Assembly (NCBI RefSeq): GCF_039641995.1
Contig: NZ_CP087714.1
Location: 868,001-932,000 of the forward strand
Origin: Geoglobus acetivorans
GTDB taxonomy: Archaea > Halobacteriota > Archaeoglobi > Archaeoglobales > Archaeoglobaceae
Direction: 5' to 3'
DNA length: 64,000 nt
Positions within the stretch are counted from its first letter, which is position 1; the number at the start of each line of letters is the position of its first letter. Below the pieces are notes generated by a model that did no database searches, was not told the DNA's origin, and saw only the letters and a program-made list of their open reading frames with translations. Positions 1-63,149 of this stretch are shown here, piece by piece. Position numbers and translations under genes: made by a program.

Positions 1-1322
1 AACGGCTCATCAGGGAATCTGAGTCTTATGAACCCGACGAGAACCTCCCGGGACGGATCCTCGAATGAAATGAAAAACTCCTTTCCACTATTCGCCTCAT
101 ACTTTCTCACAACCTCCTCAAAGTCTCGTTCTCTGTATTCTTTCAGTCTGTGTCCCGCCTCCCTGCACCTTATGCATCTGCATGAATATCCAAGCTCCTT
201 CAGCCTCTCGTGGATTAGCTGCCTGATGTTTCCCTTGTCCAGTCCAATTGCCCTGTCAACGGGAATATCTCTCTGAATTCGCTGAATTCTCACGTATTCG
301 GGTATGTACTTCTTCGCCCTTGCTACAAGCTCCACGACTTCTTCGGTAGAGTATGGAGTGTATTCACCTCTTTCGTACATCTCGTAGAGCTGGGTGCCTC
401 TGACGACAAGGGTTGGATAAATCTTCAGGTAGTCCGGCCTGAAATCAGGATTTTCGAAGAGAATTCTGAACATTTTCAGATCTCTCTCAAAATCGGAACC
501 CGGCAGACCGGGCATGATGTGATACCCAACCTTGAATGCCGAATCCCTCAACCTTTTCGTCGCATCGACAACGTCCTGGACTCCATGCCCCCTCTGAATT
601 TTTTCAAGCACATCATCGTAAACGCTCTGCACTCCAAGCTCCACCTTTGTCCCGCCAAACCTGAGCATCTCAATTATGTGCTCTTCCCCGGCATAATCCG
701 GCCTCGTCTCGAACGTCATGCCAACGCATCTTGCTTTAGCCCTTTCGTTGTCTTTCTTTGCCTGTTCAAGGTCGCTGTAGAGCTTTTTCTCACTTTCAAA
801 GCTGTTCAGGGCTGAGAAAATTCCGAGAATGAACTTTTGTTTGTAATCTTCCTCTCTTGCCGGAAACGTGCCGCCCATGACGATAATCTCGACTTTATCC
901 ACGTCGTGGCCAATCTCCTTAAGCTCACTCAGCCTCGATGTTACCTGTCTGAAAGAATCGTACTCATGCTGCCTGCCTCTCTGTGCGGCGGGCTCGAATC
1001 CAATGTAGCTCTGGGGTGTGTTGAATTCCACGCCTCCGGGGCACGGAATGCACTTTCCGTGGGGACATGGTGCCGGAGAAGTCATCACGCTGACAACGGC
1101 GACACCGCTTATCGTCCTCACCGGCTTCAGCCTGAGGACTTCCCTAAGCTTTTCATAAAGTGGCTCATTTTTGACTGCCCTCAGAACATCTGCATCAGAA
1201 GGGATTGTTGAGAGCGAGTATTTCTTGGCGACTCTCTTTTTAATCCTGGCTATTTCCTTTTTATCCACTTTTCCGATTTTTGCAATTTCGAGAGCAATTT
1301 CTCTCAATGCTGCTTGAGACAT
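1..1322 (-). CDS. elp3: tRNA uridine-34 modification enzyme Elp3, C-terminus beyond window
   Basis: Archaeal Elp3 couples a radical SAM domain to a GNAT acetyltransferase domain and makes the cm5U family of modifications at the wobble uridine of tRNA. Translating the minus strand from the ATG at 1322 gives a helical N-terminus and then the family motif CPHGKCIPCPGG, with candidate cluster cysteines at residues 86, 91 and 94. About 440 codons are inside the window, against roughly 520 for the family, so the missing part is the end of the GNAT domain. The frame is open to the window edge. The downstream gene (DUF1648 protein) is on the same strand just upstream of the start. Identification is firm; the exact product modification is from family knowledge. 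Confidence 0.93.
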   Translation of the reverse strand, partial: MSQAALREIALEIAKIGKVDKKEIARIKKRVAKKYSLSTIPSDADVLRAVKNEPLYEKLREVLRLKPVRTISGVAVVSVMTSPAPCPHGKCIPCPGGVEFNTPQSYIGFEPAAQRGRQHEYDSFRQVTSRLSELKEIGHDVDKVEIIVMGGTFPAREEDYKQKFILGIFSALNSFESEKKLYSDLEQAKKDNERAKARCVGMTFETRPDYAGEEHIIEMLRFGGTKVELGVQSVYDDVLEKIQRGHGVQDVVDATKRLRDSAFKVGYHIMPGLPGSDFERDLKMFRILFENPDFRPDYLKIYPTLVVRGTQLYEMYERGEYTPYSTEEVVELVARAKKYIPEYVRIQRIQRDIPVDRAIGLDKGNIRQLIHERLKELGYSCRCIRCREAGHRLKEYRERDFEEVVRKYEANSGKEFFISFEDPSREVLVGFIRLRFPDEP

Positions 1323-1375
1323 TCCCTGAAAATACGGAAATGCAGGTTAAAAATTTGACGGAGAAAACTGCAGTT

Positions 1376-1957
1376 TCATGCTCGGGCGTTGCCGTAAATT
1401 TTGGCCTCGTCTGCAATTTCAGCGGAAAGCTTCTTGAGAAAAACCAGGAAACCGAAAATCAGTACGGGAATTGCTCCGAGAGTAACGGGCAAAAACCATT
1501 CTGGCATTGCACCTGCAACAGTTCCGACATATATTCCATATTCAATCGCGAGGAGATATAATGTCAAAAATGCACCCATGCCCAGCAGAACTTCAAAATA
1601 CCTGTTCACCCACCATGCTCTTCTTTCGGCAGGAATTCGGTCGATCATCATGAAGAATGCGGGCAGGTTGATGAGATACGGGTGGTTGTTGATGATGGTG
1701 AATCTGTATTTTGCGATAAGGAGGAATATTATAGGGGCAATGCTCAATGCAACGGGCAAAATCATCCAGGTACTTTTATCTCCGTAGCTGTCTGGCTTGC
1801 CCTCAAAGTTGAAGTGGGAGGGGATGTTGTCGGGCAGAGTTTGATACGCATATATCGCGAGGACCCAGATCCCCGCAAGACCGAGTAATATCAGGGCTAA
1901 AAATATCTGACCTTTCTTAGATATTGGTTCAGGAGGAATCTTTTGGATTTTCATCAT
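1376..1957 (-). CDS. DUF1648 domain membrane protein
   Basis: A 193-residue protein with five or so hydrophobic segments. After the first membrane helix it has the DUF1648 signature (LPDNIPSHFNFEGKPDSYG, about residues 41-59), which is found at the N-terminus of SdpI-type immunity proteins and in many stand-alone membrane proteins of archaea and Firmicutes. No function is established for this form. It sits 53 bp upstream of elp3 on the same strand and could share its transcript. A TATA-like stretch (TTAATATTATAC) lies just upstream of the start. A second ATG one codon in is equally possible as the start. Confidence 0.7.
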   Translation of the reverse strand: MMKIQKIPPEPISKKGQIFLALILLGLAGIWVLAIYAYQTLPDNIPSHFNFEGKPDSYGDKSTWMILPVALSIAPIIFLLIAKYRFTIINNHPYLINLPAFFMMIDRIPAERRAWWVNRYFEVLLGMGAFLTLYLLAIEYGIYVGTVAGAMPEWFLPVTLGAIPVLIFGFLVFLKKLSAEIADEAKIYGNARA

Positions 1958-2000
1958 TCTTTGTATAATATTAAGTTAGAATTAAAAAATTTTGGAAGGT

Positions 2001-2320
2001 CTATAGCAGTCTTAGAATATCCCACATCTGATACATTCCAAGTGCCACAGCGGGAATTGATGCGCAGATGAAAGCTTTTCTCAGCTCAATCTCTCTTGCA
2101 TGCCTCACAGCAAACGTCCAGATCACAAGCCCCCAGATTGTTACTGCAAGGTTGATTATCAAGTTTGAGTAAACGACATCTCTGGGTATAAATGAAAGTA
2201 TTATGTCCCCCACTGCATCGGGATTTTGAAGCTGAGCAAGGTCTATCTCTGGAATCTCTGCGTTCATCAGGTAATATGCCGAAACTGGGACTGTTATCAT
2301 GGAACCAACCAAGGAAGGAA
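2001..2320 (-). pseudogene. Truncated Yip1-like membrane protein, 5' end lost
   Basis: The minus-strand frame encodes about 106 residues with three hydrophobic segments and the order expected of the C-terminal half of a Yip1-family membrane protein (ending near GMYQMWDILRLL). The family is normally about 200 residues, so the N-terminal half is missing. The loss coincides with the point, near 2321, where recognisable SpoIIM-family coding sequence begins on the other strand. The open frame happens to run a little past this point to 2333, but the sequence there belongs to the other gene. Yip1 assignment is by overall pattern only; the truncation is the more secure statement. Confidence 0.45.
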
Positions 2321-2554
2321 GAAATCCCTGCAATAATCATAGCCGGAGCAGCAGGCTTCAAAATTCCTTATGAAATTGTAAGGTATTTGGCTGGCAAGAA
2401 AGAAACGATTCTAACAAAAGAAGACATAAAAGAATACCTGACCTTTGCGTTAATCTCCATAATATTAATCGTAATCGCAGCGTGGATAGAGGCGAACGTA
2501 ACCCTCAAAATTGCCAAAAGTGTGATCGATTTGACAAATGGCTTTAATCGATAA
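2321..2554 (+). pseudogene. C-terminal fragment of a SpoIIM-family membrane protein (copy 1)
   Basis: The frame encodes 77 residues that start inside the conserved EIPAIIIAGAAG block of SpoIIM (DUF95) proteins and run to a stop, ending in a hydrophobic helix and the family's typical tail (AAWIEANVTLKIAK). The first half of the gene and any start codon are absent; upstream sequence is the antisense of the Yip1-like gene. A second copy of the same tail lies at 62127-62309. A broken PIN-domain gene follows and overlaps its end by 17 bp, just as a vapBC pair follows copy 2. It is probably not translated unless by fusion. Confidence 0.7.
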
Positions 2555-2686
2555 TACAGTTCTTTCAAACCTTGTGAAAGCAGGTAGATATGACTCACTA
2601 AAAAAGGCTTTTGGGATTGTTATGTGATAGAGCAGGTTTTGGAAGGATTCAGATTTTGGTGTTGGGAATGGAGTCGGAAGTTTTGA
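2538..2686 (+). pseudogene. Broken PIN-domain (VapC-like) gene remnant
   Basis: From ATG 2538 the frame reads MALIDNTVLSNL and continues for 29 residues to a stop at 2625. This opening is typical of archaeal PIN-domain proteins, with the first active-site aspartate at residue 5. The coding signal then continues in another frame from 2624 (VIEQVLEGFRFW), matching the second helix of the fold, until a stop at 2686. No further PIN sequence follows. The gene is therefore frameshifted and cut short, and cannot make an active nuclease. The reading is by eye from short stretches, but the IDNTVLSNL opening is distinctive. Confidence 0.6.
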
Positions 2687-2758
2687 GGATGGGGGTAGAG
2701 CCTTGGTTAGATTATCCAAAAATTTAATATGTTTTCCATATTTTTGTTTGAGAGGGGC

Positions 2759-3028
2759 ATGAAACGAAAGATCATGCTCAGACTGATGGCCTCAGTTACG
2801 CTTGCCGCTATTTATGCATTGATTGCAGAAGTTAGAGGATATGGAATGCTCAATGCTTTTGCAAGTGGTACAGCTGCGTTTATTGCCTGTTACGTAATGC
2901 TCATGCCAAAGCCAAGTAAAGAGGGTGATGGTCAGTATAAGATGGGTACATTATTTTCTAAACCAAAGATTATTGAAATTGTCCTGTTCATTGGACTGAC
3001 ATCTATGCTACTGGGTCTGATAGTTTGA
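2759..3028 (+). CDS. Small two- to three-helix membrane protein
   Basis: An 89-residue hydrophobic protein of no recognised family. A basic N-terminus (MKRKIMLR) is followed by two adjacent hydrophobic segments, a short charged loop, and a last helix at the C-terminus (VLFIGLTSMLLGLIV). The ATG at 2759 is preceded by GAGAGGGG, a good ribosome binding site. The frame is open ten codons further upstream, but that start lacks such a site. A TATA-like AATTTAATATG lies at about 2720. It is a single gene between the gene scar at 2.0-2.7 kb and the sirtuin gene. Confidence 0.6.
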   Translation: MKRKIMLRLMASVTLAAIYALIAEVRGYGMLNAFASGTAAFIACYVMLMPKPSKEGDGQYKMGTLFSKPKIIEIVLFIGLTSMLLGLIV

Positions 3029-3143
3029 TAAGATAGGGCTTTGCATCCTACAGTATTTTTTGCATGTGCCAGGAATTATCGGAGCCTGTGGTTCGTTTGA
3101 ATCTGGAATAAATTTTAATTTTTTCAGGTCGAATTGCAAGTGC

Positions 3144-3893
3144 ATGAACAGCAGGAACACGATTGGCAGATTGCTGGAACTCATAAAATCCTGCAATGGT
3201 GAGCTTGTGGCTCTGACAGGCGCGGGCATATCCGCAGACAGCGGGATACCCACATTCAGGGGGAAAGACGGTCTCTGGAACAAATATAGGCCTGAAGAGC
3301 TTGCGACTCCTGAGGCATTCAGAAAAGATCCTGTGCTTGTGTGGGAGTGGTATGCATGGAGGATGAATCTCGTGTTCAACGCAAAACCCAATGATGCACA
3401 CATTGCTCTGGCGCTCCTCGAGAGAAAGGGTTTGCTGAAAGCCGTTGTAACACAGAACGTGGACAATCTGCACGAGAGGGCGGGAAGCAAGAATGTCGTC
3501 CATCTTCACGGCAGGATTGACGAGGTGAGGTGTACTGAATGCGGCAGGGTCGAGAGACTGAATAAAGCTCCGGAAACGATTCCACCCGTATGCGATTGCG
3601 GAGCATTGATGAGACCAAACGTTGTGTGGTTTGGGGAACCCCTCCCTGTTGATGCACTCAATCTCGCAGTCGAGCTGTGCAGCCAGAACAGTGTTATCGT
3701 AATCGGTACCTCTGCAGTGGTTTATCCTGCTGCACAGCTCCCGTACTATGCAAAGAATGCCGGAAATACAGTCGTTGAAGTAAATCCGGAAATCACTCCT
3801 CTTACGGACCTCGCAGACCTGTCCATAAGACAGCGGGCTGGCGAGGCTTTCAGGCAGATCAGAGCTATTTTAGAAGCGGGAGACTCCCCGTAA
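3144..3893 (+). CDS. cobB: NAD-dependent protein deacylase, Sir2 class III
   Basis: A 249-residue sirtuin that removes acyl groups from lysines using NAD. It shows the NAD-binding GAGISADSGIPTFRG, the catalytic QNVDNLHERAG and following HGR histidine, four zinc cysteines in the CTECG...CDCG module, and GTSAVVYPA in the Rossmann part. WYAWRM at about residues 69-74 carries the Tyr-x-x-Arg pair that in SIRT5 and Sir2-Af1 binds succinyl or malonyl groups, so acidic deacylation is likely. The start at 3144 was chosen because homology begins there; the frame is open upstream to 3060. It converges on pth2 and overlaps its 3' end by 29 bp. Confidence 0.92.
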   Translation: MNSRNTIGRLLELIKSCNGELVALTGAGISADSGIPTFRGKDGLWNKYRPEELATPEAFRKDPVLVWEWYAWRMNLVFNAKPNDAHIALALLERKGLLKAVVTQNVDNLHERAGSKNVVHLHGRIDEVRCTECGRVERLNKAPETIPPVCDCGALMRPNVVWFGEPLPVDALNLAVELCSQNSVIVIGTSAVVYPAAQLPYYAKNAGNTVVEVNPEITPLTDLADLSIRQRAGEAFRQIRAILEAGDSP

Positions 3894-4553: not shown

Positions 4554-4997
4554 ATGGATGAATACATGAGGGTTTGCCCCAGATGTCTCAGCAGTGATGT
4601 TGAGCCGGATCTCTACACTCCTGCGGCTGTTGCCTACGGGGCGCTGAACTCGTACAGATGCAACTCCTGTGGGCATACTGGCGTGTTTTTCCCTGAATTC
4701 AGAAAAGAGGACCTGATGAATACTGAAAAACTTCAGATTGAAGAAAACGGCGCTTTTGAAGGCACCTCATTTGCAGGGGGATTTTATTCTGCCGTAATTC
4801 TCTTTTCTGCACTTGGGCTTGTGCTTTCGATGCTGTATTACATGCTCTATCTCGATCATCTATTTCTGCTGGCATTTTCAGTGTATCTGGTAATTCTTAT
4901 CTCGAACTTTCGCATGGGAATAAGGGAATCGCTGTTTTACAGAATGAGCCTGCTGGTCTCCTTAGTCCTTTATTCAGTGTTTTTCAGGTCGCTGTGA
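4554..4997 (+). CDS. Zinc-ribbon membrane protein
   Basis: A 147-residue protein with an N-terminal zinc ribbon (CPRC near residue 8 and CNSCG near residue 39) facing the cytoplasm, a linker of about 25 residues, and two or three hydrophobic helices in the C-terminal half. This layout is common among unnamed archaeal membrane proteins. The ATG at 4554 was chosen because the preceding codons of the open frame (from 4503) are basic and unlike the rest; the next ATG (4566) is also possible. No function can be given. It is followed 43 bp later by cofC on the same strand. Confidence 0.65.
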   Translation: MDEYMRVCPRCLSSDVEPDLYTPAAVAYGALNSYRCNSCGHTGVFFPEFRKEDLMNTEKLQIEENGAFEGTSFAGGFYSAVILFSALGLVLSMLYYMLYLDHLFLLAFSVYLVILISNFRMGIRESLFYRMSLLVSLVLYSVFFRSL

Positions 4998-5039: not shown

Positions 5040-5642
5040 ATGAAGATTTACGTCCCCTTCAAGCCCGAAAATCCTAAATCGAGGCTGTCGGGTGTGCTTT
5101 CACCTGATGAAAGGAAAAAGCTCGCTTATTTCATGCTGCTTGACGTTATTGATGCTTGTGGAGATTGTACTGTTGTTTCAAGCTCTTCCAGCAAACTTCT
5201 CGAAGGGATAAAGCACGAAATTGATAATCGAAGCCTTGACGAAGCTGTAACCTCCCGGATTAAGCAGAATGATGCCGCCATCATCATGTCCGACCTTGCC
5301 CTTTTGACTGAAAAAACGGTTGAACGCTTTATCGAAATGGATGGTGACGTTGTCCTGGCTCCGGGAAGAAAAGGCGGGACAAACATGCTTCTCTCAAGAA
5401 GCAGGCAATTTTACACCTCATATCACTACGGAAGTTTTTTCAAACACGTCGATATATGCAGAAAATTGAAGCTTGAATGCAGAATTTTCGACTCCTTTTT
5501 TGCAAGCGTCGATATCGATGAGGAAGATGATCTGCTCGAACTTGTCCTCCACGGAAGAGGGAAGAGAAGCTACGAGTATCTGGAAGACCTTGGCTTTTAC
5601 GTTGATCTGTCTGGAAAAGATCCGAAACTCGTGAGAGAATAG
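5040..5642 (+). CDS. cofC: 2-phospho-L-lactate guanylyltransferase (CofC)
   Basis: CofC activates phospholactate (or phosphoenolpyruvate) with GTP for the side chain of coenzyme F420. The 200-residue protein has the family's opening (IYVPFKPENPKSRLS), the LSPDER stretch, the nucleotide-binding APGRKGGTNML near residues 103-113, and the SVDIDEEDDLLELVLHG C-terminal block. Length is normal. A TATA-like TTTATTAA lies about 30 bp upstream of the ATG. The other F420 genes in the window, cofG and cofH, are 13 kb away, so the pathway is split into two loci. Confidence 0.9.
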   Translation: MKIYVPFKPENPKSRLSGVLSPDERKKLAYFMLLDVIDACGDCTVVSSSSSKLLEGIKHEIDNRSLDEAVTSRIKQNDAAIIMSDLALLTEKTVERFIEMDGDVVLAPGRKGGTNMLLSRSRQFYTSYHYGSFFKHVDICRKLKLECRIFDSFFASVDIDEEDDLLELVLHGRGKRSYEYLEDLGFYVDLSGKDPKLVRE

Positions 5643-47820: not shown

Positions 47821-47895
47821 TGCTCCGGCCGGGATTTGAACCCGGGTCGCCGGCTCGAAAGGCCGGAATGATTGGCCGGGCTACACCACCGGAGC
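47821..47895 (-). tRNA. tRNA-Glu (anticodon UUC)
   Basis: The minus strand folds as a standard tRNA: acceptor GCTCCGG with CCGGAGC, discriminator A at 47821, anticodon arm CCGGC-CTTTCGA-GCCGG giving anticodon UUC, and T arm CCGGG-TTCAAAT-CCCGG. No intron or CCA. A TATA-like AATATTATAAAC lies about 28 bp upstream (near 47925). Confidence 0.95.
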
Positions 47896-61990: not shown

Positions 61991-62126
61991 TCTGCATCGT
62001 GCGGGAAAGGGTATTAATGTTTCCATATTCGAGAAGTGCACCGGTTGTTTTCAGGAGATGGTTTTGCCTCTGCACGACCCCGATACCGCGACTTGGCACA
62101 CGAAAAACAATCCCTGCAGGACTGCA

Positions 62127-62309
62127 GGGATTTTCATCGTCAGATACTTGGCTGGCAAAAAGGAGCAAATCCTTACAAAGGAAGACATAACGGAATACCT
62201 GGCTTTGGCTTTAATTTCAATAATCCTGATCGTAATAGCTGCTTGGATCGAAGCGAACGTAACCCTTAAAATTGCCAAAGCCATGCTCAATTCGACAAAA
62301 GGTATTTGA
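62127..62309 (+). pseudogene. C-terminal fragment of a SpoIIM-family protein (copy 2)
   Basis: The frame encodes about 60 residues beginning IFIVRYLAGKKEQILTKED and ending AAWIEANVTLKIAKAML, which matches copy 1 at 2321-2554 in 44 of 48 codons at amino acid level. Upstream, 62101-62126 contains ATCCCTGCA as in copy 1, but the intervening IIIAGAAGFKIPYE codons are deleted and the frame is broken. A palindrome (AATCCCTGCAG-GA-CTGCAGGGATT, 62109-62132) marks the spot. The vapB gene follows after 24 bp. Confidence 0.68.
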
Positions 62310-62333
62310 ATTTTCGAATCTAATTTAACACCA

Positions 62334-62555
62334 ATGGCAAAGGTTATCGAAGTCGTATATGAAGATGGTGTGTTCAGACCGGCAAGGAAGGTAACCTTAC
62401 CGGAAAAGACTAAGGGAAAGGTGATAGTAGAAGAGAATGTGATGGGCGACGTTGAAGAGTTCTCGGAGAAGATCGACGAAATTTTAAAAGAAACAAAAAT
62501 CGATGAAGATCCCTTAGAAGTCTTGCTCAAAATGAGGAAGAGAGCATGGGATTGA
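62334..62555 (+). CDS. DUF104 family antitoxin (VapB-like)
   Basis: A 73-residue protein of the AF2212-type DUF104 family: AKVIEVVYEDGVFRPARKVT, LPEKTKGKVIVEE, then an acidic helical C-terminus that would bind the toxin. These are antitoxins to PIN-domain toxins in Archaeoglobales and other archaea. It overlaps the vapC gene by 10 bp. It appears intact. Confidence 0.87.
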   Translation: MAKVIEVVYEDGVFRPARKVTLPEKTKGKVIVEENVMGDVEEFSEKIDEILKETKIDEDPLEVLLKMRKRAWD

Positions 62556-62984
62556 CAATTGACACATCTATTTTGGTCGATTTCTTCGCGAAAAGAAAAT
62601 ACTGAAAGGTATGAGAAATCAAAAGAATTTCTGAAATTGGCTAAAGGCAAATCGGTATACTGTCCAAGGTTGATTTTAGCTGGGATATATGGTGTTCTCG
62701 TAAGATATAATATCAAATTGGCAGATTTAGGTCATGATCTTGTTCTTAAAAACTTCAATTTGATTGAGGAGGGCGATATATTTGATGAGATTCTTAAAGT
62801 TTGTAAAAATGCAGGGTCAAGAGCTGTTGATGGATATTTTATTGCAACTGCAAAACTATCAAACTCAATTCTAATCACTAATGATAAAATCATGGCAAGC
62901 AATGCCAAAAAAGCTGGTATTGAAGCCTATTATTTGATTGAAGAGTTTGACAGAGCGGTAGAACGGTTAAACGAAGTGAAGTAA
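62546..62984 (+). pseudogene. PIN-domain toxin gene (VapC), frameshifted
   Basis: From ATG 62546 the frame reads MGLTIDTSILVDFFAKRKY and stops at 62603-62605. The rest of the protein continues in the +1 frame (KENTERYEKSKEFLKLA through LNEVK, stop at 62984), so a one-base change in 62581-62600 (TTTCTTCGCGAAAAGAAAAT) breaks it. In addition, the second acidic active-site residue, normally E in LAEIYG, is G (LAGIYG, codon GGG). ITNDK and AVDGYFIATA are intact. Loss of frame and of an active-site residue together suggest an inactive toxin, with the antitoxin left in place. Confidence 0.72.
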
Positions 62985-63149
62985 CGAGATCCGGTTTATT
63001 GCTGGCAGTATGAATTCTTGTTCTGGAGTTTTCAAACGATCATATACGATCACAAAACTTTTGACAGATGTCTCTTCGAATTCCACAACAGTATTTCCAA
63101 TTGAAACGCAAGAAAAACAATAAATCCTCTCGCCCAGATATATATCTCA

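Follow-up and report, generated by a model that had tools for sequence, protein, structure and literature searches.

Cassettes of three or four genes that combine arCOG01996 (DUF95/SpoIIM) with arCOG02054 (Yip1) have been described as archaeal "dark matter," and the sections of the two papers that treat them name Archaeoglobi, Methanococci, and Thermococci (PMC4158269, PMC5898192). The genes analyzed here, which are assigned to this group by domain content and taxon, resemble the described cassettes in their SpoIIM, Yip1, and small divergent membrane proteins. Unlike complete arCOG01996–arCOG02054 cassettes, the window (the whole 64,000-nucleotide stretch that was analyzed, from a complete 1.90-Mb Archaeoglobaceae genome) holds remnants only. 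The arCOG01996 sections of these papers contain no exchange anatomy, leader-core peptide, division of SpoIIM into N- and C-halves, or toxin-antitoxin (TA) genes behind SpoIIM.

Circular bacteriocin clusters offer a second comparison. They pair a precursor gene with a DUF95 protein gene, the Bacillus cereus cyc cluster also has YIP1 and small membrane or immunity proteins, and a gene for an ATP-binding protein is required (PMC8534725). The archaeal cassettes are similar in that a small hydrophobic precursor gene lies beside the DUF95/SpoIIM gene (28 leader-core peptides). However, they have no dedicated ATP-binding gene and carry a long conserved leader, and the tested peptides gave no significant match in Pfam or NCBIfam, bacteriocin families included. 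No ATP-binding gene lies between Yip1 and SpoIIM in the listed neighborhoods, and an ATPase-like gene was seen near two copies in genome G017 only. Because the required ATP-binding gene is missing, we would not claim membership in the circular bacteriocin clusters for the archaeal cassette.

Two headless SpoIIM tails in one genome

The window contains two short SpoIIM tails, at what we call locus 1 and locus 2. The features of both loci, with strands, are as follows.

2001 to 2333, minus: C-terminal half of a divergent Yip1 gene (PF04893, 1.2e-6, profile positions 106-169 only)
2310 to 2332, no strand: deletion junction between Yip1 and SpoIIM, placed by junction alignment, with short microhomology of about GAA-TCC
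2321 to 2554, plus: SpoIIM tail 1, the conserved C-half from EIPAII (PF01944, 6.2e-11)
2538 to 2627, plus: remnant of a PIN toxin gene, 29 codons from the ATG at 2538, overlapping the stop of tail 1 (identified from sequence)
2759 to 3028, plus: small membrane protein of a second locus 1 cassette whose SpoIIM is gone (homologue at L087:13995-14264)
62136 to 62309, plus: SpoIIM tail 2, the last 57 codons, fused to intergenic DNA next to a ROK-kinase gene
62334 to 62555, plus: AF2212-like (VapB-type) antitoxin, 25 bp behind tail 2 (PF01954, 7.1e-16)
62546 to 62984, plus: PIN (VapC-type) pseudogene, with a stop after MGLTIDTSILVDFFAKRKY and the rest in another frame (PF01850, 6e-8, in the downstream frame)

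We consider it very likely, on the basis of sequence comparison, that both tails are pseudogene scars and that each goes back to a deletion of its own, in a different copy of a cassette that is multi-copy in Archaeoglobaceae. As scars they show no more than ordinary decay; the source cassette is the interesting object.

An earlier sequence-only reading had reported the two tails and counted their codon differences. Both are present at the noted places and the count was exact, with 48 codons aligning without gaps from IVRYLAGKK to LKIAK, 25 differing, and 21 of these changes silent. Its limits for tail 1 (2321-2554) also stand; the SpoIIM-derived part of tail 2 begins at 62136, not 62127. Tail 1 scored 42.9 bits against the Pfam SpoIIM/DUF95 profile (PF01944; cut-off 26.9), covering positions 108-162 of 163, and its start at EIPAII coincides with the start of a DNA block common to intact paralogues. 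Tail 2 scored below the cut-off (0.0023, 18.3 bits, positions 132-162) but is more than 90% identical to the family consensus in direct comparison and close to intact members, and by this comparison it is plainly the same SpoIIM domain as tail 1. With such partial profile coverage, neither tail is a full-length SpoIIM membrane protein.

The PF01944 matches and the identity of the C-part with intact copies rule out an origin of the tails from unrelated genes. A recent duplication of one tail is excluded as well: the tails are 30 of 144 nucleotides apart, and for each the closest sequence is its orthologue in G. acetivorans. The full-length SpoIIM gene of the same genome at C1:2997-3500 was rejected as a source, being a distant paralogue with 35% identity.

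Tails that differ almost only at silent sites had been read as two lines long separated under protein selection, not as a recent dead copy, and this interpretation held. The distance between the tails is no smaller than that from either to an intact G. ahangari copy. Over the 48 codons, the Nei-Gojobori (NG86) method gave pS of 0.72, pN of 0.046, and omega of about 0.02. Among intact copies, silent sites of the C-part are saturated (mean pS 0.69, mean pN 0.11, 300 pairs), and the pN/pS of the tail pair, 0.064, falls at the 3rd percentile of intact pairs, near that of other Geoglobus pairs (e.g., pN of 0.037 between the G. ahangari and G027 copies). Purifying selection on the C-half, which is nearly invariant in working copies, explains the near-wholly silent differences between the tails. 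Both tails thus belonged to genes under selection until a time that is recent on the divergence scale of intact copies.

Tail-type SpoIIM genes are often multi-copy in the family. The survey, which was keyed on the tail and so counted only copies that have one, found a match in 32 of 55 genomes, the weakest matches being distant paralogues. Among these genomes, we take G025 to be Geoglobus acetivorans and G026 to be G. ahangari; G023 is presumably Ferroglobus placidus, G014 A. sulfaticallidus, and G020 A. veneficus.

A deletion between Yip1 and SpoIIM at locus 1

At locus 1, window positions 1-2323 align with 1407-3731 of the G. acetivorans region L083 and positions 2321-2684 with 5180-5542, such that 1448 bp are absent from the window relative to G. 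acetivorans and SpoIIM is joined at EIPAII. One deletion cut Yip1 and beheaded tail 1. G. acetivorans has a fuller cassette at this place, consisting of a full-length Yip1 orthologue (227 aa, L083:3408-4091), a 105-aa peptide gene, a small membrane protein, and a SpoIIM gene with a frameshifted start region; behind these lie a PIN remnant and pieces of a second cassette. The 48-codon core of tail 1 differs from its orthologue there by four silent changes and one replacement. The PIN gene is truncated in G. acetivorans too, and full-length PIN genes of the DNTVLSN type lie behind other SpoIIM scraps (L121, L128, L139). The close G. ahangari homologue of the small membrane protein at 2759-3028 (L087:13995-14264) is found directly before an intact SpoIIM gene.

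The layout of the locus 1 scar recurs in a different genus, in which another C-terminal Yip1 piece adjoins a SpoIIM tail (genome G008, L126:3172-).

An intact cassette and a shared scar at locus 2

In the interval between the ROK-kinase and AMMECR1 genes, G. ahangari has a complete cassette (L087:2748-4727) with a divergent Yip1 gene, a 90-aa peptide gene, a 109-aa membrane protein gene, and a 187-aa SpoIIM gene, behind which lie a decayed antitoxin and a PIN gene. A full SpoIIM gene with antitoxin occupies the same place in G027, and G030 has two full SpoIIM genes there, each with a HicB-like antitoxin gene. Approximately 1.8 kb is missing in both the window's genome and G. acetivorans (L084), with an identical junction. 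Intact versions in three Geoglobus relatives, together with this common junction, indicate that tail 2 is a deletion scar common to two species. Full-length SpoIIM-TA pairs exist in related genomes and were damaged separately at the two loci.

The sequence-only reading had placed a PIN gene within 25 bp behind each tail and proposed that two full SpoIIM-PIN(TA) pairs had been damaged in parallel. Behind tail 1 there is a PIN gene, but it is the overlapping 29-codon remnant; behind tail 2 the neighbor is the AF2212-like antitoxin, equivalents of which, intact or decayed, follow SpoIIM at locus 2 in G027 and G. ahangari. The pairing of SpoIIM with TA genes was borne out. The partner is not specifically PIN, however: SpoIIM closes a peptide cassette, and VapBC, HicBA, or DUF433-DUF5615 genes can follow it. 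Within the window the antitoxin at 62334-62555 is intact, but the PIN gene is broken at both loci; that of locus 2 has a stop after 19 codons, and its alignment with G. acetivorans shows it broken there as well.

An alternative is that tails and TA genes form a mobile unit, inserted as such and not left by deletion. About half of the copies have a TA gene at a near-constant short distance, and tail 2 with its antitoxin forms an island of identity between two species, as a mobile unit might. However, the full G. ahangari cassette with decayed antitoxin and the full G027 SpoIIM with antitoxin stand at the same place, which makes the larger arrangement, shared by G. ahangari, G027, and G030, the probable ancestral state, and the ORFs listed beside the copies include no recombinase except for transposase-like frames behind the G028 scrap. 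We consider insertion extremely unlikely and retain deletion as the origin of the tails.

We also observed unusual similarity between the two species at locus 2. Tail 2, the antitoxin, the broken PIN gene, and intergenic DNA (window 62019-62600 and 62819-63118 versus L084) are mostly 94%–100% identical to G. acetivorans, and dS is 0.02-0.05, compared with 0.73 in AMMECR1. Because non-coding DNA is more alike here than genes are, this pattern suggests a recent exchange between the window's species and G. acetivorans.

Alternatively, the tails could still be produced as membrane proteins of one or two helices, with a role such as that of partner to the adjoining TA genes. Their frames are open (120 and 193 codons), tail 1 has mostly silent changes relative to its orthologue (four of five), and tail 2 is 97% identical between the species while the flanking genes are mostly 83%–90% identical. 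However, upstream of the tails both frames are open by chance, running antisense to the Yip1 and ROK genes, and outside these parts the only starts are TTG, GTG, or very late. Five helices are predicted in the full SpoIIM model and tail 2 keeps about one, and the adjoining toxin genes are broken. Tail 2 differs from its orthologue by two silent and two replacement changes, with one replacement at a family-conserved position in each genome; these four changes are few, and we see in them no sign of continued selection on tail 2 since the deletion. Additionally, the window's genome has no recognizable precursor gene and no full-length SpoIIM of the tail group, and thus no complete cassette. The idea that the short tails are still used is unsupported by these comparisons, and we judge it very unlikely. 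Decay after deletion is the reading that we follow below.

Anatomy of the intact cassette

Intact Archaeoglobaceae cassettes consist of a divergent Yip1 gene, a leader-core peptide gene, a small membrane protein gene, SpoIIM, and often a TA gene. The window shows this Yip1 neighbor as the half gene at 2001-2333, and Yip1 is intact at both loci in relatives. The peptides are about 85-109 aa long; a conserved leader (MYAVKNWNEEVIKWLAVGMVLAM) precedes a Gly/Ala-rich core that varies between them. In all, 28 peptides encoded around SpoIIM genes or their remnants have this leader, W(N/D)EEVxKWLAVGMVLAMVGMAVMP, in common; recognizable precursor genes number three in G. acetivorans, two in G. ahangari, one in G027, and three in G030. 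SpoIIM is itself divided, with a hypervariable N-part (mean pairwise identity 27% across 26 intact copies) and a conserved C-part (83%), and the C-half is the only part left in the window. A protein that is half variable and half invariant gives a concrete handle on DUF95 function outside sporulation.

The leader-core peptide resembles the precursor of an antagonistic peptide destined for secretion. Such a cassette would make and export an antagonistic, bacteriocin-like peptide, with the small membrane protein as putative immunity partner; the N-half of SpoIIM may fit the particular peptide, and the C-half a common machinery. The middle, comprising core, small protein, and SpoIIM N-half, would be swapped by homologous recombination between two blocks, with the tails as left-over 3' anchors and the TA gene outside the exchanged part. 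Taken as a whole, the scar reading, the cassette anatomy, and this account of antagonism, immunity, matched halves, and middle exchange seem probable to us.

The AlphaFold peptide model (pLDDT 54) was too poor for a fold search, and the SpoIIM model (pLDDT 72) gave a best Z of 8.5, to small or long-helix chains, within the chance level for helical models. The structural matches listed for the SpoIIM model included no circular-bacteriocin or DUF95 structure, and a sequence search of solved structures had a best E of 0.022, to an unnamed chain.

Anchor blocks and proposed exchange of the cassette middle

DNA similarity between paralogous cassettes is limited to two blocks, promoter/leader and SpoIIM C-half. 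The C-block runs from about GIFEIP to the stop (roughly 200-255 bp), with a few matches continuing into similar antitoxin genes, and its edges around GIFEIP are sharp (about -30/+7 to +190/+225), in complete isolate genomes too. Within-genome pairs differed at 2/144 or 3/144 C-block positions and at 0/81 and 4/81 leader positions, with N-halves 25%–28% identical, and permutation gave P below 0.0002 for the near-identity of both blocks; the most homogenized pairs come from metagenome-assembled genomes, in which short repeats can be misjoined. The middles of homogenized pairs were as different as those between genomes. Since near-identical end blocks enclose unrelated middles within some genomes, we suggest that the cassette middle may be exchanged, with the two homologous blocks as anchors. 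Among isolates, only the Ferroglobus pair comes close to homogenization (94% over 222 bp, nothing similar outside), and Geoglobus paralogues were not homogenized.

Middles also appear to travel together. Genomes G003 and G005 share a core that is 95% identical under leaders that differ at 27/81 positions, and the accompanying small protein and SpoIIM N-half are 89% and 83% identical, respectively. Across 20 cassettes, core, small protein, and N-half co-varied (Mantel r 0.40-0.54, P 0.0005), a result that rests mainly on three pairs, while core and C-half did not (r 0.02). When two cassettes were left out, the core correlations became non-significant and the correlation of small protein with N-half stayed.

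These patterns could instead reflect ordinary decay only, with the middle diverging fast under diversifying selection and the ends kept by coding constraint, without recombination. Protein constraint does explain the conservation of the C-half between genera, where silent sites are saturated, and the Geoglobus paralogues fit this alternative. However, point mutation is not expected to give C-blocks 98.6% identical over 214 bp and identical leaders around unrelated middles in one genome, nor a core and N-half that recur in two genomes under different leaders. We therefore regard decay without recombination as unlikely and prefer exchange of the middle. More broadly, the scars point to a widespread archaeal cassette whose anatomy suggests a peptide weapon with built-in specificity exchange. 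We tentatively propose, as one possibility, an Archaeoglobaceae antagonistic-peptide system that changes specificity by swapping the middle block between leader and C-half anchors, with TA genes holding the fixed 3' side and headless tails as characteristic scars.

Toxin-antitoxin genes behind SpoIIM

The genes behind SpoIIM belong to ordinary type II TA families (AF2212-like VapB with PIN VapC, HicBA, and DUF433-DUF5615). Unlike ordinary modules, they recur directly behind a membrane-protein gene, and both PIN genes of the window are broken. An antitoxin or DUF433-DUF5615 pair directly follows SpoIIM in 12 of 26 intact copies, mostly 5-35 nt after the stop, and TA genes lie within 900 bp of 28 of 61 copies when scraps are included, a count that contains the HicB of L101:4104. 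The seven Geoglobus genomes together have 28 AF2212-like and 24 HicB-like genes. Because such antitoxins are well under 1% of genes, if a genome has about 2,000, the linkage to SpoIIM is far above chance, even allowing for the non-independence of orthologous places. In the proposed exchange, the antitoxin would stay outside the part that is swapped. Scars end at TA genes, possibly because deletions into a live TA pair are selected against. The recurrent TA gene behind SpoIIM is a possible link between antagonism and addiction modules.

A third SpoIIM scrap is present in the window's genome (G000 C1:1085629-1085694, or L014:1501-1566). It has the EAYITPRIAEYFLR type of tail and is followed by HicB and a HicA-like frame; this tail type with a close HicB also occurs in G. 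acetivorans and G030. SpoIIM scraps of the window's genome (L014, about 1270-1480, minus strand) and of Ferroglobus (L124, about 4640-4760, minus strand) have a frame for a small Cys-rich peptide (CLMFVPITWEACILAAGCF) next to them, at the positions given, and G008 has a short related stretch. This frame has no Pfam match and no significant NCBIfam match, and is possibly another peptide type.

Elsewhere in the window, G. acetivorans carries about 11.2 kb of additional DNA at the tRNA gene at 47821-47895 (minus strand). This DNA is bordered on both sides by about 44 bp from the tRNA region and is probably an integrated element.
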